Virus record (IMG/VR): IMGVR_UViG_3300042691_016611
Location: 1-35,467 of that record
Length of the DNA: 35,467 nt
Origin: a virus
Reading direction: 5' to 3' (one strand)
The position numbers and the translations under genes are program-made. This document shows positions 1 to 26,484 of the stretch, in pieces. The notes beneath the pieces are model-generated. The model did no database searches and was not told the DNA's origin. It saw only the letters and a list, made by a program, of their open reading frames with translations. Within the stretch, counting starts at the first letter, position 1. Each line of letters begins with the position of its first letter.

Positions 1-57
1 GTGACTCGTAAGCTTCCTCCTGTTCCAGCCCCTCCAGCTCCAAAGGTGCGAGAATGA
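1..57 (+). CDS. C-terminal end of an upstream gene (partial)
   Basis: Frame 1 is open from the first base and ends at a TGA at 55-57, leaving 18 residues rich in proline and alanine (PPVPAPPAPKV). The stop overlaps the start of the next gene in an ATGA arrangement, which is the commonest junction in this window and suggests a genuine upstream gene in the same operon. The fragment is too short to assign a function. A proline-rich tail is common in secreted or envelope-spanning proteins, but this is only a hint. Confidence 0.55.
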   Translation: MTRKLPPVPAPPAPKVRE

Positions 58-404
58 AACATGTTCTGTTTATTGTCGGTATGCTTCTGCTCTTCATCCC
101 GACAAGCAATGACACACCAACACCAATTCCTGATCCTGATGTACCTCCCGCTCCTGTAGTGGTTGACAAAGACCTGTGGGACGTTGCTTCAGACAACTAC
201 AGAGTGTTAACAGCTGAAGTATTTGAAGAACTCGCTACAAAGACTTTTAACAGCGACGAAGAGAAGCTCAAACACATTCTTGACCACACTACAGCTGCTC
301 GCATGGGAGCATTCACAGAGGTCAACAAGCGTATCCAATCTGCTGCGAAGGATAATACCTTCGCTGATCTGGCCAAAGCCCTTAAAGAACGAGGATTGAA
401 GTAA
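54..404 (+). CDS. Small secreted or membrane-anchored protein, unknown function
   Basis: This 116-residue protein starts with a hydrophobic stretch at residues 3-16 after one lysine, typical of a signal peptide or N-terminal anchor. A proline-rich spacer follows (about 20-37), then a charged helical domain (about 40-116). No lipobox cysteine follows the hydrophobic stretch, so it is not an obvious lipoprotein. The ATG overlaps the preceding TGA and the TAA overlaps the next ATG by one base, so translation is probably coupled. Position next to a cysteine peptidase and small membrane proteins suggests a lysis or envelope role, possibly spanin-like. That is inference from context; no family is recognised. 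Confidence 0.6.
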   Translation: MKHVLFIVGMLLLFIPTSNDTPTPIPDPDVPPAPVVVDKDLWDVASDNYRVLTAEVFEELATKTFNSDEEKLKHILDHTTAARMGAFTEVNKRIQSAAKDNTFADLAKALKERGLK

Positions 405-1270
405 TGGTAACGAAGTTGCCCACACCAAACGGTCAAGCCTACGTTCCTGATGAGTGGTTCTCTGGATATGATCCAACAATTGAACCCAGAGAACTCCTGT
501 TCGCTGAATGTATTGACTTTGATGTTAATGACCTGCTGGTTCAGGGAGACCTCCCCGACACTCGTGGTATTAAAAACATCATGCGTCGAGATGATCAGGG
601 ACGCATCAACTCATGTTCTGGATTTGGTATGACAGGATCAGGAGAGGTAAGCTACTTCCTGCAGTCATCCAAATGGCGACAGTTCAACCCTATGTGGTCT
701 TACCGTCGTGGTCAGGAAGTTAACAACATCCGTACCGACTCTGGTGCTACAATCCAAGGTGTTGTGAAGGCTGCTAAGGAAGTAGGATTTCTTCCCGAAG
801 ATATGGACGGTGATGGTAATGTTGATATTCCATATCGCGAAGACTACGGTATGCGTTTCCCAAGCAATGCAACTGAGGTAGCTTCAAAATGGAAAGTCGG
901 CTACTCCATCAACCTGAGAGGTTATGATGAAATTCTCAAATATCTTCAAGCCAATCAAGGTGCGGTTATTGTTGGCGGAAGTTGGGGCAATTGGCGTCCC
1001 AATGCAAGAGGTATTGCTAATAATTTTTCTAGTGGTGGTGGCGGACACGCTCGCTGCTATGTTGACTGGATTACCATTGACGGAGTGGTATATCTCGTTG
1101 AATGCAACAGCCACTATACCAGTTATGGAGACAACGGATTTGCCTACCACAGCAAACAGTTTGTAGACCAGCAGGCTGCTGATCGCTTCACTGTAACAAT
1201 TGGTGTATCCGACCTCTCAAGCCCTGAACCACGATTCATCGATTGGAGCAAACAATGGTTGCTTGGATAG
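404..1270 (+). CDS. Papain-like (C1 family) cysteine peptidase, candidate lysis enzyme
   Basis: A 288-residue protein with the catalytic set of clan CA, family C1 peptidases: Gln65 as oxyanion residue, Cys71 in NSCSGFG, His215 in GGHARCYVDW and Asn235 in the CNSHYTSYGDNGF segment, which corresponds to the NSWG..WG..G motif of papain. Between them lie the usual Tyr-Arg helix region (about 100-125) and a Gly/Ser-rich loop before the histidine. There is no N-terminal signal peptide and no long propeptide; only about 60 residues precede the nucleophile region. In a phage operon beside membrane proteins, the likely role is cutting peptide bonds in the host envelope during lysis, or processing virion proteins. 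Fold assignment is fairly secure; substrate is inference. Confidence 0.75.
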   Translation: MVTKLPTPNGQAYVPDEWFSGYDPTIEPRELLFAECIDFDVNDLLVQGDLPDTRGIKNIMRRDDQGRINSCSGFGMTGSGEVSYFLQSSKWRQFNPMWSYRRGQEVNNIRTDSGATIQGVVKAAKEVGFLPEDMDGDGNVDIPYREDYGMRFPSNATEVASKWKVGYSINLRGYDEILKYLQANQGAVIVGGSWGNWRPNARGIANNFSSGGGGHARCYVDWITIDGVVYLVECNSHYTSYGDNGFAYHSKQFVDQQAADRFTVTIGVSDLSSPEPRFIDWSKQWLLG

Positions 1271-2022
1271 TGATGTTGCTGGTAATGTTTGAGGGTGTGG
1301 ATGACCAGAACTTTCAATACTCTTATGACATCGAGAAAGCTCGTGAAGCTTATAAAGCTCAACTTGTTCAGCTCGAACTGCAGAAGGCTGTTGTTGAAGA
1401 AAAGAAGCAGGTAGAGGTGTCGCTTAAATGGGATACCGTCGTATCACAAGCCCCACAACAGCATTATCTGGTTACAGGTCCAAACTGTATCTACTGCGAA
1501 CCTCGTAAGCGATACCTGAAATCTCAGGGAATTGCCTTTACTGAAATATCTGTAGAACAAGCCAGATCCGCACCATATAACAGGATTGTTACAACCATTC
1601 CTGCTGAATTTGATATGGCTCTCACGACAACCACAGCTGTGTGTGAAGCTTCCTGCGAACCAACTACACACGCAGCTCTCTCTATCCTCGCCAACCATTT
1701 GCTTGCTCAACAGTCTAAGGATGCAATGGGAAGCCTGCTGGAGTTTGATATAGATACACCAGATGCTCTACCTTCCATTATCACTCAATTGATGACTAAG
1801 CAGAAATGGACTAATGGTGTTGTCTCAGTAGACTGGTCCGGCAACAGATCAATCTCTGTCCAGCCAGAAAAAATCATCTTCACACCCCCTCCATCTGTTC
1901 GAGCTGTGAAGGGTGTCTTCTCTTACAGCACTTCTCTGAAACAGATTAGTGTTCGTAATCAAGGCAAACAACTTGAGATTGAGTTAACAACCTGTCCAAA
2001 CCTCATCATCAACTTTAAGTGA
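1255..2022 (+). CDS. Membrane-anchored protein with glutaredoxin-like CxxC segment
   Basis: The ATG at 1255 is preferred because GGAG sits six bases upstream; an in-frame TTG at 1243 is an alternative start. The product has 255 residues. A very hydrophobic N-terminus (residues 1-12) looks like a signal or anchor, followed by an acidic, Gln-rich helix (about 25-55). Residues about 70-110 carry TGPNCIYCEPRKRYLKSQGI, which resembles the CxxC active-site strand and helix of glutaredoxins, followed by an FTEISVE strand. The rest is not recognised and includes a CEASC pair at about 129-133. It overlaps the peptidase gene by 16 bases. A thiol-disulfide role outside the cytoplasm, perhaps acting on the neighbouring peptidase, is speculative. 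Confidence 0.6.
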   Translation: MVAWIVMLLVMFEGVDDQNFQYSYDIEKAREAYKAQLVQLELQKAVVEEKKQVEVSLKWDTVVSQAPQQHYLVTGPNCIYCEPRKRYLKSQGIAFTEISVEQARSAPYNRIVTTIPAEFDMALTTTTAVCEASCEPTTHAALSILANHLLAQQSKDAMGSLLEFDIDTPDALPSIITQLMTKQKWTNGVVSVDWSGNRSISVQPEKIIFTPPPSVRAVKGVFSYSTSLKQISVRNQGKQLEIELTTCPNLIINFK

Positions 2023-2029
2023 GGCTGTT

Positions 2030-2368
2030 ATGCTTCTGACACTCAGAGAACAGAACAGCCTCATTTCTTCGATGAAAGCTGCTTTTGGATGCTCTCCAGC
2101 AAACATCAAGTTTTATGGAACAGTTGATAACGCTGTCAATCGTAAGAAGCTGAAGGAAGCTAAAAAATGGGATGCTGCCTGCGATAAAGTAGGCAGAGCT
2201 TTCTTCGAAGTTTGTAGTACGAAGCGAGTCGTTACATTTGACCAGCTTCAATCCTCGGTAGCGTTATACTTTGGATGGTTTGCATGGATTTTCATTAAGT
2301 GGGCAGCTCCTCGCATTTTAGCGTTCTTATGGGAACGCACACATGACGTTCGCATGGATAATATTTGA
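2030..2368 (+). CDS. Small protein with C-terminal membrane segment
   Basis: 112 residues. The N-terminal two thirds are charged and helical; a single strongly hydrophobic, aromatic segment lies at about 76-100 (VALYFGWFAWIFIKWAAP), ending with a short charged tail. The start follows the previous stop by seven bases, with GAGG just upstream. Small size, one membrane segment and location in a probable lysis cassette make it a candidate holin, antiholin or membrane-associated lysis protein, but no family is recognised. The function is inferred only from topology and neighbours. Confidence 0.5.
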   Translation: MLLTLREQNSLISSMKAAFGCSPANIKFYGTVDNAVNRKKLKEAKKWDAACDKVGRAFFEVCSTKRVVTFDQLQSSVALYFGWFAWIFIKWAAPRILAFLWERTHDVRMDNI

Positions 2369-2413: not shown

Positions 2414-2746
2414 ATGTTCTTGTTTGCTCAAGCCGAAGTCGCTATAGACCATCTTGCTCCTTGGGGACAAATGACAGCTACTGCTGTTATGCTGGCTATG
2501 TTCGTTTGGATGATAACGAAGTGGTTTCCTCAGCTACTGGACAGGCATGACTCGACACAACTGCAGACACGAGAACATTTTGAGAAAATCCTCGATAAAA
2601 TTGAAGCAAACAGAGAGAAAGAGAATGCACAGAGGTTTATAACTGCTAAAGACGGACACGAAGCAGCTGTAGCCCTGTCTCATGCAATTGAGAATAACAC
2701 GTCTGCAATCAATTCCCTCAGTAATAGTGTGAAGGCCCATGTATGA
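2414..2746 (+). CDS. Small membrane protein with coiled coil, holin or spanin candidate
   Basis: 110 residues with one transmembrane helix at about 18-37 (MTATAVMLAMFVWMITKWF) followed by a long hydrophilic helix (about 45-105) rich in Glu, Lys, Gln and Asn with heptad-like spacing. An AAGGAA site lies seven bases before the ATG. One N-terminal helix plus a cytoplasmic or periplasmic coiled coil is seen in several phage holin-like and inner-membrane spanin proteins. It shares an ATGA overlap with the next gene. An in-frame-shifted ORF at 2365-2550 is a shadow of this gene. Function is inferred from topology. Confidence 0.55.
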   Translation: MFLFAQAEVAIDHLAPWGQMTATAVMLAMFVWMITKWFPQLLDRHDSTQLQTREHFEKILDKIEANREKENAQRFITAKDGHEAAVALSHAIENNTSAINSLSNSVKAHV

Positions 2747-3348: not shown

Positions 3349-4518
3349 GTGCCTACGACTTCACCACTACGTCCAAATGCGACACTCAATTCTGGGTGGG
3401 GTGGATCAAATCCATTCACCTTAATTGATGACGCTACGACGCAGCCTACAGCTGGTGGTACGAGTGATTACGCCTACTATTCAGGTGACTCATCTGCCGC
3501 TCAGCAGTATGGTTGTGCCTCTCCGACAAATACAGGTCTAATCACTAGTGCAAAACTGTGGGTGTACCTCAAATTTGATAGCAACAGCGACGGCGACATT
3601 AGTGCGGTACGTATCAGGCTCAACGGTGTATGGCGATCAGGAACGCTGACAGGTAAGCCATCGTCAGGTGCATGGGGATGGGCATCATGCACAGTGACTG
3701 GTGAGTACGGAGGCTTAAGTAGCTCGACACCAGCGTTTGAATTAACATATAGTGGTGCGTCGATAGATGGTGAAGTATACGTTGACGTAGCGTACTTAGA
3801 AATCACTTATGTCGACATGCCAACCTTAAGTGGAGCACCTGTAGTTGAAGGTGTAGCTGTTACGCACTTCTCAGCGAATCAAACAACGCACACGGTTAAC
3901 CTACCATCTGGAATAGCATCAGGTGACTTGCTGCTGTTATGGTTCAGTAAAGATGGTACATCAGGCACCATCACAACACCATCGGGCTGGTCTATTGCTA
4001 TCTCCACAATCACTGCAACCGATCAGAGTATTTTGTTTTCAAAGACAGCCTCAGGAAGTGAAGACACCACGGTTTCAGTAACAACATCGATTAGTGAATC
4101 TAGTACATGCATTGCTTACAGGATCTCGGGATGGACTGAAGTTGTTTACGCAAACACCACCGTAAGCACCACAATGCCATATTTCCCACCATCAACGATT
4201 GCAACAGAGACAGCAGGAACAATCGCGATTGCGATGTACTCCGGCACTGGTGCAGTCGCTGAACCTGCTGAATTAAGCAATGGGCCAATCGCATGGACTG
4301 TCGCACTCGGGAATTCAGCCGATAGCGGCAACACCGTAGCAGCTTATTCACAGGCGGCAATTGTAAATGCGGTGGAAGGCGTAGAGGTGTATAGTTTCCC
4401 ATGGCGGTACGGATCAAACACATCTGGTAGGTTGATTTCAGTCGCAGTACACGGAACTGCAGCAAGTGGCGGTAGTGGCGGATTGTATAACACTTTGTCG
4501 ACAGGGCTGGTGCGTTAA
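3349..4518 (+). CDS. Beta-rich fibre or adhesin-like virion protein
   Basis: 389 residues starting at GTG (3349), with GGGGAG about nine bases upstream. The composition is Thr/Ser/Gly/Ala-rich with few charged residues, typical of beta-sandwich phage fibre proteins. Residues about 69-157 form a module with the signature FDSNSDGDISAVRIRLNG, GTLTGKPSSGAWGW and IDGEVYVDVAYLE that recurs twice in the fibre at 20629-23739. A second beta domain (about 170-370) follows, then a Gly-rich linker (SGGSGGLYNTLSTGLVR) at the C-terminus. The shared module argues that both proteins belong to the same adsorption structure or bind related ligands. No enzymatic motif is seen. The stop overlaps the next ATG by one base. 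Confidence 0.7.
   Translation: MPTTSPLRPNATLNSGWGGSNPFTLIDDATTQPTAGGTSDYAYYSGDSSAAQQYGCASPTNTGLITSAKLWVYLKFDSNSDGDISAVRIRLNGVWRSGTLTGKPSSGAWGWASCTVTGEYGGLSSSTPAFELTYSGASIDGEVYVDVAYLEITYVDMPTLSGAPVVEGVAVTHFSANQTTHTVNLPSGIASGDLLLLWFSKDGTSGTITTPSGWSIAISTITATDQSILFSKTASGSEDTTVSVTTSISESSTCIAYRISGWTEVVYANTTVSTTMPYFPPSTIATETAGTIAIAMYSGTGAVAEPAELSNGPIAWTVALGNSADSGNTVAAYSQAAIVNAVEGVEVYSFPWRYGSNTSGRLISVAVHGTAASGGSGGLYNTLSTGLVR
3553..3820 (+). repeat. Copy 1 of a beta-sandwich module shared by two fibre genes
   Basis: This segment encodes about 89 residues with the pattern W.YLKFDSNSD..I..VR.RLNG, then SG.WGW and IDG...VDVAYLE. The same pattern occurs at about 21801-22064 and, more diverged, at 22131-22395 in the large fibre gene. 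The similarity is visible at protein level, not as a long DNA identity, so the copies are old duplications or independent acquisitions of one domain family. Confidence 0.65.
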
Positions 4519-6314
4519 TGTTTCGTAACCTCACAGAAGACGCAACCATTGAAATCTACTTTGAAACGTTCGCGTCAACGGGAGCACCAGTTGCACCATC
4601 GTCAGCGTTTACAACGTCAGATTTTGCTATCTATAAGAACGGATCTGCAACAGCCAAGGCTACTACCAACGGGCTAACTGTAACGAGTCCGTTCAACTCG
4701 GAAGCCGGTTGTCACCTACTTGTGATTGATACCAGTAACGACACTGGTGATACTGGATTCTGGACAACAGGAGCACGGTATCAAGTAAAATTTAACACAG
4801 CAAAAACTGTAGGCAGCCAGTCGATTGATGGTGCGTCAGTGCCTCGTGGATCATTCGGTATTCAATCTGAATATGAGGGTGCGAATGTTGTGTCGTGGAG
4901 AGGTAGTACACCAAACGCACTAACAAGCGGACGAGTCGATGGAATTGTTGGTGCTTACGCTTCAGGACAGGCACCATTACAACCAACTACAGCAGGTAGA
5001 ACGCTCGACGTTACTGCTACTGGTGCTGCTGGTATCGACTGGGCGAACATCGAAAACCCAACATCTTTAAACCAATTCAGCGGTAGTTACATAGCCCTAC
5101 AGAACAACCAAAACGTGAACCTTAATGATGGTGCAATCACTGCTTCAAAGTTTGCTGCAAACGCAATCACCGCTTCTGCCTTAGCAGCTGATGCTGCAAC
5201 AGAGATTGGAGCAGCAACTCTAACAGCACTCGGCACGGGTACGTGGGCTACAGCCATTCCATGGAATGCTGCATGGGATGCTGAAGTACAGTCTGAATGT
5301 GCAGATGCGATCACAGCTGCTGGTGTCATGACAGGAACATATACAGCTCCTGATAATGCGACGATAACGCTGATCAATGCGAAAACAACAAACCTGCCAT
5401 CAGATCCAGCAGACGCATCAGATATATCTGCGGCATTCGGTACAGTGAACACTACTCTCAGCACAATAGCTGGGTACATTGATACCGAAATCGCATCAAT
5501 CAAAACCAAAACGGATAATCTTCCAACAGACCCCGCAGATCAATCACTGATTGTTGCTGCAACAGATGCAATCATATCTCGACTTGGCTCTCCAGTAGGT
5601 GCGTCTATGTCGGCTGATATAGCTTCTGTAAAAACTGATACAGGCAACCTCGTCACTCGCATTCCTGCCGCTCTATTCTCAGGCATTACATCTCTTGCTG
5701 ATTGGATTCGTCGTATCAGTCGTAAAGATGCTGGCACAGCTGGTATGATTGCTGCTGAAGCTGAAATTGATACAGGAGGTACTTCAACCTTCACAGGAAC
5801 CACAGATAGCCTCGAAGCTATTGCTGATGCCTCTGGTGGAGGTGCTGGCGATGCCTCACAAACCACTCTGCTCGCTGTGAAAGCTAAGACAGATCTAATC
5901 GGTACGGCTCAAGGCATTACTTCTCTAGAAGCGGCAGCTGTTCTTGACGCAGGTACAATCTCTGGGTTCCCAACAGAACTGATTGTTGGAGATAGCTACG
6001 ACTCTGACAGCGGTGAAATTGACGTTACCATCGTCGGTGCTGAAGGTGATCCTATCACAAGTATGGGGAGTCTCAACTTCTCAGCAGCAACAATTGAGTT
6101 CACGGCCTACCGCACAGGCGATCCATCATCCATGCACCTGTCTGGTACGTGTACTTACGCCAACAGTATTGTTAGTATCACTCTTCCTTCTTCAGTAACA
6201 GCTCTAGGCAAACCAGAATTCACCTACGAAGGTAGATTGAAATTCATTTGGACTGCTGCTGATGCTCAGAAGACATTCAAGACCACTCAATTTAAGTTTG
6301 TAGAAAATCCATGA
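4518..6314 (+). CDS. Tail fibre or baseplate-associated protein with BppU-like N-terminus
   Basis: 598 residues. The first 120 (FRNLTEDATIEIYFETFASTG, IYKNGSATAK, GFWTTGARYQVKFNTAKTVG) resemble the N-terminal attachment domain of baseplate upper or fibre proteins: a beta domain describing input range and kind. The middle (about 160-430) is Ala/Thr/Asp-rich with the recurrent motif KT(D)NLP(S/T)DPADxS at about 292 and 334, typical of trimeric fibre shafts. The C-terminus (about 490-598) is a beta domain ending in a Lys/Phe-rich strand. The gene shares an ATGA junction with TerL. Placement of a fibre immediately upstream of the terminase is unusual. The structural class is fairly clear; its exact location on the virion is not. 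Confidence 0.7.
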   Translation: MFRNLTEDATIEIYFETFASTGAPVAPSSAFTTSDFAIYKNGSATAKATTNGLTVTSPFNSEAGCHLLVIDTSNDTGDTGFWTTGARYQVKFNTAKTVGSQSIDGASVPRGSFGIQSEYEGANVVSWRGSTPNALTSGRVDGIVGAYASGQAPLQPTTAGRTLDVTATGAAGIDWANIENPTSLNQFSGSYIALQNNQNVNLNDGAITASKFAANAITASALAADAATEIGAATLTALGTGTWATAIPWNAAWDAEVQSECADAITAAGVMTGTYTAPDNATITLINAKTTNLPSDPADASDISAAFGTVNTTLSTIAGYIDTEIASIKTKTDNLPTDPADQSLIVAATDAIISRLGSPVGASMSADIASVKTDTGNLVTRIPAALFSGITSLADWIRRISRKDAGTAGMIAAEAEIDTGGTSTFTGTTDSLEAIADASGGGAGDASQTTLLAVKAKTDLIGTAQGITSLEAAAVLDAGTISGFPTELIVGDSYDSDSGEIDVTIVGAEGDPITSMGSLNFSAATIEFTAYRTGDPSSMHLSGTCTYANSIVSITLPSSVTALGKPEFTYEGRLKFIWTAADAQKTFKTTQFKFVENP

Positions 6315-8248
6315 CAACTTCTGCCCCAAGCAAAGCTGTTAGGTACGACAGATTTCTGAGAGGTGGTAATAAGAAAATCTCTCAGGACATTCCTGTTCCA
6401 ATCAGAAAAAATCACAGACTTGTAGGGTACGAATACAAGTCTGTCAGGCTTTCCGAACTGTTGCGAATGATTCCGATGTATGACGTTTTCCGTGAAGCGG
6501 AAGACTACTACTTCGACTTAGATGAAATGCACCAGTTTATAGAGTTTGTTATCAATGAATGTGTATATCCTGAAGGCGAGTTGACAGGTCTGCCATTCAT
6601 CCCAGAACTCTGGCAATGGGCAATCTACTTCAATATCTTCTGTTGGAAACATAAAGAGACAGGCTACAGACGATTCAAAGAAGCTTTTATATACACGCCC
6701 AGAAAATCAGGTAAAACAACAGCGTTCGGATCAATTCCAACACTCTACATGTTTTTTGTAGATAAAGAACCACGATCACAAAACTTTTGCTGTGCTGCTG
6801 ACATTGAACAAGCATCAATTAACTTTCGTCATACAGCGTACATGATTGAGCAGAATCCAAACTTGCTCAATCGTCTGCGTCAACATAAAGTTAATAGATC
6901 AACCCGCAGCTTTGAACATGCCAAAGACGGCAGCATGTTCAAAGTGTTGTCTGCTATTGCTGAAACCAAACACGGACTGTCTCCTAACTTTGCTTACGTA
7001 GATGAGGTACACGCACACAAGAGTAGTGAACTTATTGACGTAATGCTGACAGGTACGGCAGCTCGTAGACAATCTCTCACAATTTATACAACCACAGCAG
7101 ATTATGACAGACCGTCAACGTGTAACGAGATGTATGAGCGAGCTAAGCGGATAGCTATTGGCGATTCATCAGACCCAGCATTCTTACCTGTGATCTACGA
7201 AGCACAAATAGACGATGACTTTGAAGATGAACGAATTTGGAGAAAAGCTAATCCAAATTATGGCGTATCCATTTACGCTGAATATTTTGAACGAAACATT
7301 CGTCAGTGTAAATCAAATCCAGTTCTGCTAAATAGATTTCTTCGTCTTCATTTAAATGTTAAAACTAAGACGGAAACAGTATGGATTCCGACGTGGGTAT
7401 GGGCTAATGGCAACCACACTGAGAACCATTTATTATCAATTGACGAAATCAAAACTCTGCTTTATAATCATCGTCTGTGGCATAACTTCGCAGCAGACAA
7501 TGAATGGTTTAATAACAGTCAGATAGACCTCTATCTCACTGAGTTCCAAGGCTACTTCACATGGTACTTTAGAAAGCTTGAAGAACTGCAGGATGTTGAA
7601 TGTTATGGAGGTTATGATAATTCCTCAGTTAATGACATTGCTTCCTTCAGTTTATACTTCCCCAGCGAAGGGGTAGTAATGCCGTGGTTCTGGGTTCCAG
7701 CAGAGTCTATCTACAAACGAAGTGTTGAGGAACGTCTTCCTTACGACAGATGGTTTAAGTCAGGCTTAATCAATAATACTCCCCTCGCATCCATATCTGA
7801 ACGAGATATAGCCAAAACTCTGACAGGTGACGGTAACCAAAAAGGTATATGCACCTATTTCAGAAACCTTCAACTCGTCTGTTTCGATGCTTGGGGTTCA
7901 AACTTCATTTATGAAACTCTCTACAACGCAGGGCTACAAGCAAAGAAATACCCACAGTCCTATGTAGGGATGAATGGTCCTTGTCGGAAGCTCCAAGCTG
8001 ATATAGAGAACAGAGAATTGTTTCACGGTTCCAATCCTGTCCTTAGATGGATGATGGGAAACGTGACAATGACAACAAACAACAATGATCAGATGAGACC
8101 GAACAAACAGAAGTCCACAGATAAGATTGACGGTGTTGTTGCATCGTTAATGGCTATCGGAGGACACATGTATTCTGGTCAGCAAATGATTACAAGCATA
8201 TCAGGATTGAGAGAAGCAAATGAGCTGGAATCCCTTCCGACGACGTGA
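6311..8248 (+). CDS. terL: Terminase large subunit
   Basis: The packaging motor ATPase and nuclease that translocates DNA into the prohead and cuts concatemers. 645 residues. The ATPase domain shows a Walker A-like motif TPRKSGKTT (129-137), an adenine-motif region before it, Walker B FAYVDEVH with Asp231-Glu232, and a coupling TTTAD motif (about 260-264). The C-terminal nuclease half begins at about 430 with GGYD (Asp436), and ends with the NKQKSTDKIDGVVASLMAIGG segment typical of terminase_1-type large subunits. It overlaps the portal gene by 29 bases. No small-subunit gene is recognisable next to it. Confidence 0.95.
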   Translation: MTTSAPSKAVRYDRFLRGGNKKISQDIPVPIRKNHRLVGYEYKSVRLSELLRMIPMYDVFREAEDYYFDLDEMHQFIEFVINECVYPEGELTGLPFIPELWQWAIYFNIFCWKHKETGYRRFKEAFIYTPRKSGKTTAFGSIPTLYMFFVDKEPRSQNFCCAADIEQASINFRHTAYMIEQNPNLLNRLRQHKVNRSTRSFEHAKDGSMFKVLSAIAETKHGLSPNFAYVDEVHAHKSSELIDVMLTGTAARRQSLTIYTTTADYDRPSTCNEMYERAKRIAIGDSSDPAFLPVIYEAQIDDDFEDERIWRKANPNYGVSIYAEYFERNIRQCKSNPVLLNRFLRLHLNVKTKTETVWIPTWVWANGNHTENHLLSIDEIKTLLYNHRLWHNFAADNEWFNNSQIDLYLTEFQGYFTWYFRKLEELQDVECYGGYDNSSVNDIASFSLYFPSEGVVMPWFWVPAESIYKRSVEERLPYDRWFKSGLINNTPLASISERDIAKTLTGDGNQKGICTYFRNLQLVCFDAWGSNFIYETLYNAGLQAKKYPQSYVGMNGPCRKLQADIENRELFHGSNPVLRWMMGNVTMTTNNNDQMRPNKQKSTDKIDGVVASLMAIGGHMYSGQQMITSISGLREANELESLPTT

Positions 8249-10037
8249 CAACTCTATCGGCCTGTTAAATCAGGTTTTGAATGCTGCTACGTCTGCTCTA
8301 TCAGGAAGAGACCTGTTCAGCTTCATGTGGCGTAGTCGTCAGCACACATCAGACAGCAGCCTAAAGCTCTCCGCTGTGTTTTGTGCTGTCAACCTCTACA
8401 CAGGTTCAATTGGTAGCCTTCCTCGTACTGTCATTCGTATTAGTCCTTCAGGAAAGCCTGACAGGCAGCTCAATACAGCCGATCATCCTGCTGTTAAAAT
8501 CTTTCTTCATTACGCAAACCCTGATTACTCAGCTGATGCGATGTTGGGAGACATGATCTATGACCGACTCCTTGATGGCAACTATTACGCTATACGTGAG
8601 TTCGACAGTCAGGGACGCACATTTCGTATTTACCACGTCCACCCTTCACGTGTACCTCGTGGTAACATCTACTATGCCGATGGTACGGAGCAGTTGGCTA
8701 CAGGTGCAGTAGCTCGCAAAGGTACGCTCATCTACCGCATCGAGACGGGCAACACTAAAGAGGATGCCAATCCTCAATACATGTTGCTTCCTCGGGAGTA
8801 CATGGTTCACATCAAGTCTGACATTCCTGATAAGCCAAACCACAGAGGTTTTGGTATCATCGAGAATGCAGGCCGATCATTCAACATGTACGAAAACTCT
8901 GAAGAGTATGGCGTACACTTCTACAAGAACGGCCACAAGAATCAAACATATCTAACCACAGAAAACAGGTTAGCTCCTGATGTTCTGAAACGTGTTGAAA
9001 GCTTCTTCGAGTCTCATCCTAATGCAGCAATGGAAGATGCGTTCAAGACACGTATTCTCGAACAAGGTCTGAAGCCTGTAAATGTTGCTATTCCTATGCA
9101 GCAGTTGCAGTTTATCGAAACCAGAGCATTCTCTGTTGAAGACGTATCACGATGGTTCAATGTTCCTCCCGAACTACTCCACTCTCACATGGGCAGCAAC
9201 GGTAGCAGCAGCGACGTAGGTAAGCTCATCCACCTGTTCATTCAAACTGGCTTACATCCATTCATCAGTAGCTTAGGGAGACAGATTCGCAATGAATTGT
9301 TACCTCTCTCAAGTCAACTCCAATATTCCTTCGAATTCAACCTCATTTACTTATTCCGTACCATCATCAATGAATTCTCGCAAGCCCTGCGAAACTTCTT
9401 TGAAATTGGAGTTATGGACAGAACAGAAATCTGTAACCTACTCGGAATGCAGATAGATCCTACAGATGCTAACAACGCTCTGCGTTACGTACCTGCCAAC
9501 CTCATGACAGTAGACCACAGCATTGCTCTGCGTGACAAAGCTCTGCTGGCTAACGACATGATGGACCAGCAGATTCGTAAGCTCACCCTGGACAACGACA
9601 ACTACATGTCGCCTAAAGAGTCTATGGAGATGCAGCAAACTAAGAAAGAAGAAGAAGAAGTAAAACCACCTTCAGACTCTCTCGATAAGAGTCCTGATGA
9701 TCAGAACCTCGATAAGAAGCTGCGTGTAGCTAAGAACGCTTTCATAGCTGTGGTGAATGGTCTGCAGGCTTACGAACGTAAGGTGTTCGACCAGAAACAA
9801 TCAAAATACTCAAACGTAGAAGAGTTCAAAGCTTCTATGTCTGAGTTCTACACAGACAAGTTCACACACAACCTGACCAGCACATTCAACGAATGGGCAG
9901 ACATTCTTCCAGATGTATCTCCATTCGCCACGGTAGACGAATTGATTGATTCATGGCTCTACTCTCCTGTCAATAACATCCTGTCAAGTGAAGACGGGCA
10001 TACTCGCTTCCTTCAACAAATCGGATCAGCACAATGA
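8220..10037 (+). CDS. Portal protein
   Basis: Forms the dodecameric ring at the packaging vertex. 605 residues. Recognisable signatures of the HK97-type portal family are the N-terminal LKLSAVFCAVNLYTGSIGSLP segment (about 48-68), the DGNYYA..(EF)D motif (about 120), and SVEDVSRWFNVPPELL (about 303-318), followed by the FNxxYLFRT clip and stem region. The last 150 residues form a charged extension (KKEEEEVKPP onward) and a helical domain unusual in minimal portals. It begins inside the end of terL and ends in an ATGA overlap with the protease gene. Confidence 0.92.
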   Translation: MSWNPFRRRDNSIGLLNQVLNAATSALSGRDLFSFMWRSRQHTSDSSLKLSAVFCAVNLYTGSIGSLPRTVIRISPSGKPDRQLNTADHPAVKIFLHYANPDYSADAMLGDMIYDRLLDGNYYAIREFDSQGRTFRIYHVHPSRVPRGNIYYADGTEQLATGAVARKGTLIYRIETGNTKEDANPQYMLLPREYMVHIKSDIPDKPNHRGFGIIENAGRSFNMYENSEEYGVHFYKNGHKNQTYLTTENRLAPDVLKRVESFFESHPNAAMEDAFKTRILEQGLKPVNVAIPMQQLQFIETRAFSVEDVSRWFNVPPELLHSHMGSNGSSSDVGKLIHLFIQTGLHPFISSLGRQIRNELLPLSSQLQYSFEFNLIYLFRTIINEFSQALRNFFEIGVMDRTEICNLLGMQIDPTDANNALRYVPANLMTVDHSIALRDKALLANDMMDQQIRKLTLDNDNYMSPKESMEMQQTKKEEEEVKPPSDSLDKSPDDQNLDKKLRVAKNAFIAVVNGLQAYERKVFDQKQSKYSNVEEFKASMSEFYTDKFTHNLTSTFNEWADILPDVSPFATVDELIDSWLYSPVNNILSSEDGHTRFLQQIGSAQ

Positions 10038-10723
10038 AATTTGTACTCAATAGAGACGTAAGTAACAAAGTCGAAACTGTTGTTAACGTAAACGGCAACA
10101 CCATCGAGTTGTACGACTACATCCTCGCTGAACGATGGTATGAGGATCAGGCTGGTGTCACAGCTAACGAGTTCATCGACGCTCTCAACACGATGAAGGG
10201 TGACATCACTGTCCGCATTAACTCTCGTGGTGGAGAAGTGGGCAACGCTCTCACAATCTACCAGCGACTACTTGAGCACGAAGGTGAAGTGCATTGCATC
10301 GTCGATGGCTACGCCTACTCATGTGCTTCATGGATTCTGCTGGCAGGAGATAAGCGTACTATCAACATGGGCGGTATGGTGATGGTTCATAACCCTCAGA
10401 TGTTCGCTCCTATCAGTCGAGAAGAAGATTTCGATGTAGTCCGCAACCAATGGACAGCTCATCGTGATGCCATTCGTTCAATCATCACCAACAGAACAGG
10501 TCTGAAAGATGAAGACGTAAAAGATATGATGGATAAGGAAACCTTCATGACAGCTAATCAGGCTATTGAGAAAGGTTTCTGCTCTGGTATTCAGGAAACT
10601 ATCAAACCGTTCTCTTCGTCAGTACGGAATGCGATGCCTGTAGAAGTTATGAACATCTTCCCGGAAGACTGCTCAGACATCTATACCAGAGCACTACAAG
10701 CTCGTGCCAAAGCTCTCAAATAA
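10034..10723 (+). CDS. ClpP-like (S14) prohead maturation protease
   Basis: Serine protease expected to remove the scaffolding part of the capsid protein during head maturation. 229 residues with the ClpP/crotonase-type fold: the strand and turn ITVRINSRGGEVG (58-70), nucleophile Ser96 in DGYAYSCAS, and catalytic His119 in VMVHNP. A likely catalytic Asp lies in the helical region around 150-165. The order TerL-portal-protease-capsid is standard for HK97-like phages. No separate scaffold gene lies between this gene and the capsid gene, consistent with an N-terminal scaffold segment in the capsid protein. The start overlaps the portal stop (ATGA). Confidence 0.9.
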   Translation: MKFVLNRDVSNKVETVVNVNGNTIELYDYILAERWYEDQAGVTANEFIDALNTMKGDITVRINSRGGEVGNALTIYQRLLEHEGEVHCIVDGYAYSCASWILLAGDKRTINMGGMVMVHNPQMFAPISREEDFDVVRNQWTAHRDAIRSIITNRTGLKDEDVKDMMDKETFMTANQAIEKGFCSGIQETIKPFSSSVRNAMPVEVMNIFPEDCSDIYTRALQARAKALK

Positions 10724-23739: not shown

Positions 23740-24059
23740 CATGCGATTACAACAAGCACGGTATCTGCACTCACCCAGATAAAATTGGGGATAGGAACAT
23801 CACAGATGATGACTGCGATATCTGTAAGCTAGTCGATCTGCATAAAAAAACTTCTTGCAGACACAAAGGATCTGCAAGAAGTTGTTGTGTAGATTTGCAT
23901 ATATGTCGTAAATTAAAAAAGGATTGTGTTGAGTCCTTAATCAAATTTACGCAATACAAATCTGAAACTGATCACCCAGAACTATTTCAAGAACGAATAG
24001 TTTGTTGTGAGACATGCGAGTATAACACTATATTTCAACTTCCTTCTCAGGAATCCTAA
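23736..24059 (+). CDS. Small cysteine-rich protein, possible metal binder
   Basis: 107 residues from the ATG at 23736, which overlaps the fibre stop as ATGA; an upstream in-frame start (23679) would run through fibre coding sequence and is less likely. There are 14 cysteines, including CDIC, CC, CRKLKKDC and CCETC pairs, plus several His, so zinc or iron-sulfur binding is plausible. A longer cysteine-rich fold with disulfides is the alternative. The last 32 bases overlap the 3-prime end of the convergent helicase gene, and the middle carries that gene's predicted terminator. The function is unknown. Confidence 0.6.
   Translation: MTCDYNKHGICTHPDKIGDRNITDDDCDICKLVDLHKKTSCRHKGSARSCCVDLHICRKLKKDCVESLIKFTQYKSETDHPELFQERIVCCETCEYNTIFQLPSQES
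23844..23883 (-). terminator. Intrinsic terminator of the leftward helicase gene
   Basis: A perfect 13-bp inverted repeat (23849-23861 and 23871-23883) with a nine-base loop. Read on the minus strand the stem is followed immediately by seven T in total (23850-23844). It lies about 145 bases past the helicase stop, inside the coding region of the opposing cysteine-rich gene. On the plus strand the stem is followed by TTGTTGTG, so termination there would be weaker. Confidence 0.85.
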
Positions 24060-26484
24060 CGTATACTAATTTATGAATAGCTCTTGTAATAGCTACAAAC
24101 TTCAGATTCCATTCCTGCTTCTTAGCCTCAGCTGTCTTAGCTAGGACATGCGGTACGTTCTTAGGATTAAAGAAGTACACATTATCAGCTTCCAATCCTT
24201 TAGCTCGATGAATGCTGCTCAGTCGAATTGACTTCACATCACTATCATTGAAGATTTGCTGAATAAAACTCACAACTTCAGTGCTTGTCTTACAGTTGGT
24301 TGCAACAGTGGCGATACAGTCAGCCTGATCACCGATAGCAATCTGCCGACTCTCAGTGTCGTACTTCTTCGTCTGCAGCAACTTAATCTGCTGGTCTCTC
24401 CAATCTTCCAGCAGCTGACACAGCGTCACAGAATCAACTTCCTGCTTGTCTGTCAGTTTGTTAATGAGCTTAACCAACCCTGCTCCGATGCTGCGTCCTA
24501 CCACTTGGCAAGGCTTCCCAGCTTTGACCAACTTCCATGCCAGTGACATGAGTGGAGCATTCACTCTACTCACCAACATGTCCCCTTGCTGCAGGTCCAT
24601 ATCGGCTTCATCCAGATAGACAATCTCCCCTTCTGGATTTGTGCTGCCAGCATTGATTGCGTCACCTACAATCTTCTGAGCTTCAGCCACAATAGCCTTA
24701 CCGCAACGGTATGTGTAGCTGAGAGGCAGCACTTCCACTTCATCCATTGCTTCAGCAATCTTACTGAAGCTGTCTGTCTGTGCTCCTGCAAAAGCAAAGA
24801 TAGCCTGATTCGGATCACCAACAAATACGAATGAAGTGCAATCCTGATTTGCAATGAGTTGAAGCTTACCAGCTGATAGGTCTTGGCAGTTATGCACCAA
24901 CACCCCATTAGCGTAGAAGTTATGACAATCTTCTACAGTTATGTCGTACACATAGTTCTCGCTGATGTACGTACTATCAACCGATATAACTGTAGCAGGC
25001 ATAGGACAATTCTTACCGTCAGGACATATATCCTGCAATACTCCAGCAAAGTCTCGTGCAATATCTCGATTTTTAAACCGCAATACTTTCCATCCTTGCG
25101 ACTCCAAGAATTGATCCTTTTTGTCATCTATCTCTTTTGCCCCAGCATGAGACGCCCCGTCTATCTCAACTGCGATTCTATACTTAGGGTTAGCTAAATC
25201 AATTTTGTAGTGAGTAGGTTTATTACCTCTACCATGATTCGGAGCGTCACCAGTTTTGATGACATACTCCATGTACCATCCATCACCTAAAGCATCAAAC
25301 AGCAACTTCTGCGGTTCCGTTGGACCTCTACCATTACCGCCCTTAATTGCGTTAAAGGCTTCTCGGTCTCCACCAACATTACCGATACCTTTCGTATTAC
25401 CTTGATGTATCTGCGAAAGTTTATCTCTACCTGCAGCAGAAATCTTTCCTTTCTGTGTTGTTTCCGCCGCAGTCTCTACGATAACGGTTTCGCCTACCTT
25501 CAAATCTCCCGCATAAACCCATCCGTTATTGACGGTCCAGATTTTATGATCGACAGTACACACAACAAAATTATAAGCGTAATTACCATCAGTTCTGTGG
25601 TTGTGCTGCACCTTAACCTTAACTAGAGGTTTCCGATTAGGAATCTTCTGAGTAGCAGTAACTTTACAGTTCTTTGCTCTTCCCGTCGTGACATCGAAGC
25701 TTCTAACCACATCTCCAATCTTGATGTCTTGAATGGATTTAGACCCTCCAGCCCCTAACATAACAGGAGTCCACCCCGGAAGACACTCATCTACTACAAT
25801 ACAGTCTGCCTTAATCTTCCAACCATATCGAGCAGGCAAGTAAATCATATCGTCGAAATCAATCTCCATACCCTTCGCAGGTTTGGCTTTACCAAATGCC
25901 GAAGTCCTTCGTTCTTCTCGAACAGGTAGTGTGCTTCCTTCTTCCAGCACATACTTAACAGGCAGCTCACACGCAGAAGCTGATGAGCTGAATGTATACT
26001 CATTATCGATAGCCAATCCTGCCAGTGATGATTCCGTAATGTCATCCTCGGTCAGTACGGCATCTTTACAATACTTCACCAGTTCTCTCACATCATCAAG
26101 AATCGCTCTCTGAGCTTTCGACAACTCTTTGACACTCTTCACCTGACAAAACTGCTGATACAAATTTGCTGTCTTCCATGTGTCGGGTCTGCCGATGCGA
26201 ATTCCATTCTCTCTCATGATGCGGCAACCCAGAGAATGAATCGTTGTCGCTGTTCCGAATGTCAGACGTTCTTTCAGTTCTGTTGCGATTGCATTCGAGA
26301 ACGCACACACAACAACTTCGTCTTCAGAAGTCAACTCAGCCTTCAACCAATTCCAGATAGCCAGCTGCTCTTCTGATGGTTTGTACTTCAGTTGTTTCTT
26401 TCCTGCTACCATTGACAGTCCGTCAACGATGGTGGTGGTCTTTCCTGATCCAGCTGTAGCATTTACAATCAACGCACGTTTCAT
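24028..26484 (-). CDS. UvrD-like superfamily 1 helicase interrupted by an intein
   Basis: 818 residues including a 299-residue intein; the spliced helicase would have 519. SF1 motifs are Walker A NATAGSGKTTT (8-18), motif Ia VVCAFSNAIA (about 58-67), TIHSLG (81-86), Walker B IVVDE (229-233) continuing as CQDL after the intein, motif III VFVGDPNQAIFAFAGA, motif IV YTYRCGK, SIHRAKGLE and the C-terminal motif VI FVAITRAIHKLVYV. It should unwind DNA during replication or recombination. It is the only leftward gene in the window, with its own promoter region and a terminator at 23844-23883; an AAGGAAAG site precedes the ATG. The helicase is inactive until splicing restores the DECQDL box. Confidence 0.92.
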   Translation of the reverse strand: MKRALIVNATAGSGKTTTIVDGLSMVAGKKQLKYKPSEEQLAIWNWLKAELTSEDEVVVCAFSNAIATELKERLTFGTATTIHSLGCRIMRENGIRIGRPDTWKTANLYQQFCQVKSVKELSKAQRAILDDVRELVKYCKDAVLTEDDITESSLAGLAIDNEYTFSSSASACELPVKYVLEEGSTLPVREERRTSAFGKAKPAKGMEIDFDDMIYLPARYGWKIKADCIVVDECLPGWTPVMLGAGGSKSIQDIKIGDVVRSFDVTTGRAKNCKVTATQKIPNRKPLVKVKVQHNHRTDGNYAYNFVVCTVDHKIWTVNNGWVYAGDLKVGETVIVETAAETTQKGKISAAGRDKLSQIHQGNTKGIGNVGGDREAFNAIKGGNGRGPTEPQKLLFDALGDGWYMEYVIKTGDAPNHGRGNKPTHYKIDLANPKYRIAVEIDGASHAGAKEIDDKKDQFLESQGWKVLRFKNRDIARDFAGVLQDICPDGKNCPMPATVISVDSTYISENYVYDITVEDCHNFYANGVLVHNCQDLSAGKLQLIANQDCTSFVFVGDPNQAIFAFAGAQTDSFSKIAEAMDEVEVLPLSYTYRCGKAIVAEAQKIVGDAINAGSTNPEGEIVYLDEADMDLQQGDMLVSRVNAPLMSLAWKLVKAGKPCQVVGRSIGAGLVKLINKLTDKQEVDSVTLCQLLEDWRDQQIKLLQTKKYDTESRQIAIGDQADCIATVATNCKTSTEVVSFIQQIFNDSDVKSIRLSSIHRAKGLEADNVYFFNPKNVPHVLAKTAEAKKQEWNLKFVAITRAIHKLVYVRIPEKEVEI
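24889..25785 (-). mobile_element. Intein with Vsr/DUF559-like homing endonuclease domain
   Basis: Residues 234-532 of the helicase ORF. The first residue is Cys (CLPGWTPVMLG, block A); block B is CTVDHKIWT (about 309-317); block F and G read YVYDITVEDCHNFYANGVLV ending His-Asn (531-532), and the +1 extein residue is Cys533. All residues needed for standard splicing are present. The middle holds an endonuclease-like domain: TEPQKLLFDAL (Glu390), then AVEIDGASH (Glu440, Asp442, His446) and GWKVLRFKN, the layout of the Vsr-like EDxHD and DUF559 nucleases, not LAGLIDADG. The segment at about 356-388, rich in Gly/Asn, may bind DNA. Confidence 0.93.

Follow-up and report, generated by a model that had tools for sequence, protein, structure and literature searches.

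A gene for a papain-type cysteine peptidase and a directly adjoining gene for an apparently exported, glutaredoxin-like CxxC protein form a tight and conserved pair in a group of related phage contigs, and the best reading of this arrangement, put forward here tentatively, is that of an envelope-attacking lysis-module protease accompanied by a thiol-redox helper. The pair was analyzed in the whole of IMG/VR record IMGVR_UViG_3300042691_016611 (35,467 bases), hereafter the window, and in related contigs. In the proposed mechanism, the region would constitute a late host-envelope (lysis) module, in which the peptidase, lacking a signal peptide, would be synthesized in the cytoplasm, presumably late in infection, and would probably be released via a small holin-like membrane protein encoded just upstream. 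The glutaredoxin-like protein, predicted to be exported and tethered to the membrane, would be co-produced with the peptidase. At the end of infection the peptidase would cleave protein or peptide linkages within the host envelope, and its partner may keep the peptidase thiol active, reduce disulfides in the same target, or both; from these steps we infer cell lysis by the pair.

Phage lysis is usually described as the combined action of a holin and a peptidoglycan hydrolase. Speaking for a lysis role of the pair are the papain fold with its catalytic set, the adjacency of the two genes, the upstream holin-sized ORF, the position of the pair upstream of the terminase gene on its strand, the exchange of the peptidase body among related phages, the existence of other cysteine lysins that depend on a reductant and the absence of a recognizable endolysin from the ORFs scanned. 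Speaking against it are integrase-like ORFs near the cassette, which would also suit a lysogenic gene, the typical use of C1 peptidases for cutting proteins, and a family match of the CxxC protein that lies below the Pfam cut-off. The sequence-only reading had proposed a redox-controlled peptidase as an unusual lysis strategy; the lysis component of that proposal gains from the conserved, tight pair among small membrane ORFs and from the lack of a visible endolysin, while a redox switch built into the peptidase is disfavored.

Layout of the cassette

Both ORFs on which the sequence-only reading was built, the peptidase ORF at 404-1270 and the one that overlaps it and ends at 2022, are present as claimed. 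The cassette comprises the following features:

54-404, plus strand: 116-aa ORF with an N-terminal hydrophobic segment and a Pro-rich linker, upstream operon partner of the peptidase
404-1270, plus strand: papain-fold (C1-type) cysteine peptidase of 288 aa, assigned by Pfam, alignment, profile and model
596-598, plus strand: codon of Q65, invariant in 13/13
614-616, plus strand: codon of the catalytic C71, invariant in 13/13
1046-1048, plus strand: codon of the catalytic H215, invariant in 13/13
1106-1108, plus strand: codon of the catalytic N235, invariant in 13/13
1255-2022, plus strand: 255-aa protein with a hydrophobic N-terminus, a glutaredoxin-like CIYC domain and a family-less C-terminal domain
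1486-1497, plus strand: CIYC motif (C78 and C81, numbered from the ATG at 1255), both Cys present in 11/11 relatives
2030-2368, plus strand: 112-aa ORF whose C-terminal segment is moderately hydrophobic, with homologues in both G001 and G007
2414-2746, plus strand: 110-aa ORF with one clear hydrophobic segment, homologues in G001 and G007

The ORF at 54-404 overlaps the start of the peptidase gene by one base, and its homologues lie immediately 5' of the peptidase in the gene maps of G001 and G007. For the CxxC gene, the ATG at 1255, preceded by GGAG a few bases 5', is a likelier start than the mechanically assigned TTG at 1243, and with this start the gene overlaps that of the peptidase by 16 bases. 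Comparison of the window with G001 yields dN/dS values of 0.08 for the peptidase and 0.09 for the CxxC gene, and both ORFs are, judged by these low ratios, more than chance reading frames. On the 3' side of the small ORFs lie long ORFs (3349-6314) without a Pfam family, fibre-like by eye, followed by the gene for the terminase large subunit (TerL), which begins at 6311, and, further on, by a ClpP-like gene (10034-10723; PF00574 E=1e-23).

Two further features of these genomes involve inteins. A UvrD-like helicase encoded on the minus strand of the window (24028-26484) contains an intein that harbors a DUF559-type nuclease domain, and its 519-aa copy in G001 seems to be without the intein. Inserts that look intein-like by eye also occur in TerL genes, at L018 2064-5108 (1014 aa) and L012 12370-14748 (792 aa), the TerL of the window having 645 aa.

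The papain-type peptidase

Fold, family profile and active-site residues agree in identifying the product of 404-1270 as a papain-type peptidase with a full catalytic set, as had been proposed. Q65, which we take to be the oxyanion-hole Gln of papains, is followed in order by C71, H215 and N235, and the four residues are invariant in all 13 aligned relatives, distant huge-phage copies included; the residue after Asn-Ser is His in the window lineage (NSH) and mostly Trp in the other aligned rows (NSW). Taken alone, the window peptidase scores 12 bits against PF00112, below the cut-off of 20.7, and the L015 peptidase, encoded at the corresponding position of another phage, attains 36.5 bits (E=7.3e-9). 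In a six-frame search PF00112 was found above cut-off in 6/8 related records, the two that missed, G001 and G007, being those most closely related to the window. In a scan that included the L058 and L060 peptidases, a single entry reached PF00112, and hence one of these two fails the E 0.001 threshold alone. A profile built from 13 sequences retrieved xylellain (3ois) from the PDB with E=1.5e-49 and cathepsin K with about 2e-17. Confidence in the structural model of the peptidase is modest (mean pLDDT 56.8); submitted to Foldseek, the model returned 273 matches at E<=0.001, the best 50 of the 273 being papain-family enzymes, and it aligns with xylellain over 223 residues (Z 19.4, 3.1 A) as a papain fold. 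The L015 peptidase additionally matches C1-labelled plasmid proteins (17 records).

Neither a signal peptide nor a transmembrane segment was found in the peptidase, which has no hydrophobic segment at the threshold used. Among its Cys columns, the catalytic one is occupied in 12/12 sequences and the next best in 7/12; control through an internal disulfide is unlikely because only the catalytic Cys is conserved, and an internal disulfide switch was accordingly set aside. C1 peptidases are common and typically act as protein endopeptidases, and we know of none that cuts peptidoglycan.

The glutaredoxin-like partner

The description of the second ORF as encoding a membrane-anchored glutaredoxin-like segment is right, with the caveat that its match to PF00462 (E=9e-4, 19.8 bits) lies below the cut-off of 22.9; the protein is therefore called glutaredoxin-like and is not filed as a member of the family. 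It matches the PHROG thioredoxin-domain family phrog_22 (6.8e-5), and a PDB profile search gave eight matches up to E=1, all of them redoxins, the best at 0.042. Besides the two retained cysteines of the CxxC motif, an Ile-Pro pair, presumably the redoxin feature found at the cis-proline place, is invariant there in 6/6 sequences. Homologues of the L015 group have a lipoprotein-like start with an LTGC lipobox, recognized by eye. The model of the CxxC protein is weak (pLDDT 58.1): it yielded no Foldseek match reaching E 0.001, and in a second structural comparison Grx/NrdH chains came out on top, the best with Z 4.6 (50 residues, 2.4 A). Searches of the phage sequence collection returned no match for the CxxC protein of the window, and searches of the phage and plasmid sequence collections returned none for that of L015.

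Conservation of the pair and its neighbors

In all eight mapped contigs (the window and seven related ones) the peptidase and CxxC genes lie next to each other on one strand, and once L007, L008, L058, L059 and L060 are added the same holds for 13/13 small-phage contigs, of which L007 and L008 are not independent because their cassettes are near copies of that of L006. Since most contigs were found via the peptidase, a scan run in reverse, from the CxxC protein only, provides a fairer test; it located 11 loci, each with a peptidase ORF directly upstream (11/11). The peptidase and the CxxC gene are the only clusters occurring in all eight maps, the presence of the peptidase reflecting, in most of them, how the contigs were chosen, and the genes overlap or nearly touch in three lineages. 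At least two packaging lineages are represented among the contigs, one with Phage_portal and Phage_capsid and another with Phage_portal_2, GpA_nuclease and Phage_capsid_4. Compared across the window lineage and the L015 group, peptidases are 28-31% identical and CxxC proteins 22-25%. TerL is in view in 5/8 maps, and in all five the cassette lies upstream of it on the same strand. Lambda has the same order. Downstream of the cassette in L015, at 5877-6581, lies a gene for a PAS-domain protein (PF13426 E=7.8e-5) with a hydrophobic segment, homologues of which are found in G003 and G006.

In the huge phages L005, L009 and L011, a distant C1 peptidase has other neighbors and is not accompanied by this CxxC protein, an arrangement that counts against the generality of the pair. 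The peptidase is located there between a signal-peptide protein and CxxCH heme-like ORFs with weak PF13442 matches (L005 5045-9679; L009 7075-11925; L011 5228-10249), and each of the three phages has a second C1 peptidase elsewhere. A thioredoxin fold had been suspected by eye in the signal-peptide protein and was not borne out, its best PDB profile hits (E>=0.049) not being redoxins.

The genes on the 3' side of the pair raise an alternative, which we consider unlikely, in which the peptidase belongs to the virion or serves in maturation, cleaving the fibre or tail proteins encoded downstream, or is carried in at entry, and the CxxC protein helps to fold these proteins. The pair stands directly before the fibre-like ORFs, and most mapped contigs have these fibre-like clusters next to it as well (c0 in 7/8, c3 in 6/8). 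The prohead-protease slot, however, is taken by the ClpP-like gene, the presence of which led to a prohead-protease role of the peptidase being set aside, and the CxxC protein, with its hydrophobic N-terminus and the LTGC of the L015 group, looks exported, unlike a virion chaperone.

Exchange of the peptidase body

The DNA of L058, L059 and L060 is 82-88% identical to that of L015 on both flanks of the peptidase body, on the left up to L015 positions 3633-3634 and on the right from 4382-4388 through the CxxC gene, whereas the body itself has no DNA match to L015 in L058 and L059 and a single 44-base patch in L060. At the protein level, the bodies of the three peptidases are 42-52% identical to that of L015, with 62-72% identity over the last 32 residues, and the CxxC proteins are 92-93% identical. 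The dS of the CxxC gene is 0.44 (L015-L058) and 0.56 (L015-L060), and that of the peptidase is saturated. Matching flanks, a diverged body and concordant dS values hence show that the body was exchanged as a block next to a constant partner. A CxxC protein with 90-96% identity is found beside three different peptidase bodies and a body-specific regulator or inhibitor is therefore disfavored; the role of peptidase-specific inhibitor was set aside for the CxxC protein on these grounds. For mycobacteriophage Lysin A, lysis modules are likewise described as diverging and being exchanged more than their surroundings (PMC3314691). HNH-like ORFs, identified by eye, are situated at the left swap boundary (L058 4711-5190; L059 4570-5190), and it is possible that they drove the peptidase exchange.

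An arms race could also account for the swapping of the peptidase body as a block. Under this alternative the pair would be a moron, its peptidase being a host-takeover, superinfection-exclusion or lysogen-benefit protease that is directed at proteins of the host or of competitors and takes no part in lysis. The integrase-like ORFs seen by eye near the cassette in G003, G005 and L058 and the stand-alone C1 peptidases of huge phages point the same way. Yet the cassette shares the strand of TerL in 5/5 cases where both are in view, and its presence in 8/8 mapped contigs (chosen via the peptidase or TerL), drawn from two or more packaging lineages, would be surprising if it were dispensable; the moron explanation is given little credence.

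Search for an endolysin

The region to the left of the window was read in G001 (IMGVR 3300020044_008444), which reaches 6.1 kb beyond the window, with window base 1 at its base 6087, and which is 79-97% identical to the window over blastn segments, mostly 90-94%. Encoded in this region are a 125-aa ORF bearing a single hydrophobic segment, a phosphoesterase-like protein and a 97-aa HECLH protein with sub-threshold metallopeptidase-like matches, and the layout in G007 is similar. Upstream ORFs of 63-66 aa in G001 and G007, with two hydrophobic segments each, are of holin size; the 66-aa ORF of G001 matches DUF7940 with E=0.004, below cut-off, and is holin-like by size and hydrophobicity only, having no match in the phage collection and no significant holin family. 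Two other observations concern the left part of G001: a CsrA gene lies left of the cassette (L002 1786-1959, PF02599 E=1.7e-15), and at the left end pieces of the holin-like-ORF region recur (L012 2-235 and 1004-1273 vs 5332-5532), as a duplication or an assembly artefact.

No standard endolysin is recognizable in the 6.1 kb of G001 or in the corresponding region of G007, both contigs being possibly incomplete, so that the refuting case named by the sequence-only reading did not turn up there, and the statement that the window itself has no muramidase, amidase or L-Ala-D-Glu peptidase agrees with Pfam scans of its main ORFs. More broadly, no endolysin or peptidoglycan hydrolase family was detected among the scanned ORFs of the window, of G001-G007 and of some of L058-L060, in which capsid, portal, terminase, polymerase, helicase, ClpP, RusA and similar families were found. 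The scans drew on 371 ORFs represented by 208 cluster representatives, part of which were scanned, those left out being mostly short or antisense. An hmmscan of 46 entries from the window, G001 and G007 gave 25 families, none of them an endolysin, and one of 64 entries from G002-G006 gave 33 families, 25 of them listed. A full list of 17 families was then obtained for 47/64 of the G002-G006 entries, and a further re-scan of 13 of the other 17, four large ones being left out, together with nine L058-L060 entries, gave 13 families. An endolysin may nonetheless be absent from view because the contigs may be incomplete or its family unrecognized.

Lysis by an enzyme of an unrecognized family or one encoded on missing contig ends, with the pair as independent neighbors or accessory spanin-like helpers, would draw on the many ORFs without a family, the possible incompleteness of the contigs and the partial scan of the 208 representatives, but it is quite improbable given that the pair forms the only clusters common to 8/8 mapped contigs and that its adjacency has been kept despite divergence to 22-25% (CxxC protein) and 28-31% (peptidase).

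The host wall

A more specific and rather doubtful form of the lysis reading has the protease and the exported disulfide reductase replacing the peptidoglycan hydrolase altogether, the redoxin opening cross-links and the peptidase serving as an exchangeable blade that cuts host-specific wall proteins. The reason for the replacement would be a host wall built as a protein layer with disulfide links, like that reported for planctomycetes. Excerpts of the wall literature describe planctomycete envelopes with protein layers rich in cysteine and disulfides and report that peptidoglycan genes are absent from most Planctomycetales (PMC3035269, PMC8567305). Such an envelope would be a fitting target for a protease combined with a disulfide reductase. 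Peptidoglycan, according to an excerpt of a further source, has been detected in members of the planctomycete phylum (PMC10632474), and the premise of a planctomycete wall is weakened by this detection. The idea of a planctomycete host comes from this literature and not from sequence evidence. Two scans of genome contigs for the host gave 74 and 31 candidate stretches and no confirmed relatives, an absence that carries little weight because the scans were pattern-based; a literature search on planctomycete phages found no papers.

Comparison with known systems

The peptidase shares its fold and catalytic residues with xylellain of Xylella fastidiosa (PDB 3ois) and with bacterial C1 family peptidases, none of which, to our knowledge, occurs in a phage cassette or beside a redoxin. 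The CxxC protein resembles glutaredoxin and NrdH in its CxxC motif, in the Ile-Pro at the cis-proline place and in its top PDB profile hits, and differs from them in scoring below the Pfam cut-off and in the addition of a hydrophobic or lipoprotein-like N-terminus and a C-terminal domain.

A literature search that covered part of the matching papers found no phage in which a papain-type protease is described next to an exported redoxin. The methanogen-phage enzymes PeiW and PeiP are, in the excerpts available, cysteine enzymes that open a non-murein wall, need reducing conditions and are inactive in air without a reductant, and those excerpts mention no phage-encoded reductase partner (PMC4592898). 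Unlike the peptidase of the window, they are pseudomurein endoisopeptidases of another family: the Pfam list of the window peptidase up to E=1 holds EGF_alliinase and Peptidase_C1 only, with no C71-type domain. Cysteine-protease domains that act as exchangeable modules of lysis cassettes are described for mycobacteriophage Lysin A N4/N5 and for gp29 of Gordonia phage BetterKatz; these domains are RipA-like and C39-like, however, their hosts have peptidoglycan, and the excerpts mention no exported redoxin (PMC3314691, PMC4982276). BetterKatz differs further in having a glycoside hydrolase lysin as well (PMC4982276). The cysteine-amidase endolysins Skl and Pal have, as excerpted, a papain-like topology and lyse more strongly with DTT, in part owing to effects for which the authors suggest the envelope as a possible site, but they belong to the CHAP and Amidase_5 families and are peptidoglycan amidases, and the excerpt mentions no phage-encoded reductase partner (PMC8586454). 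Cysteine-protease-like lysins and phage cysteine enzymes that act on a non-murein wall, PeiW and PeiP, are already known; the reading of the pair as a lysis-module protease with a thiol-redox helper, if true, would point to lysis of envelopes in which peptidoglycan is not the main support, and the purified proteins would be tools for testing the share of cysteine-rich wall proteins in envelope strength.
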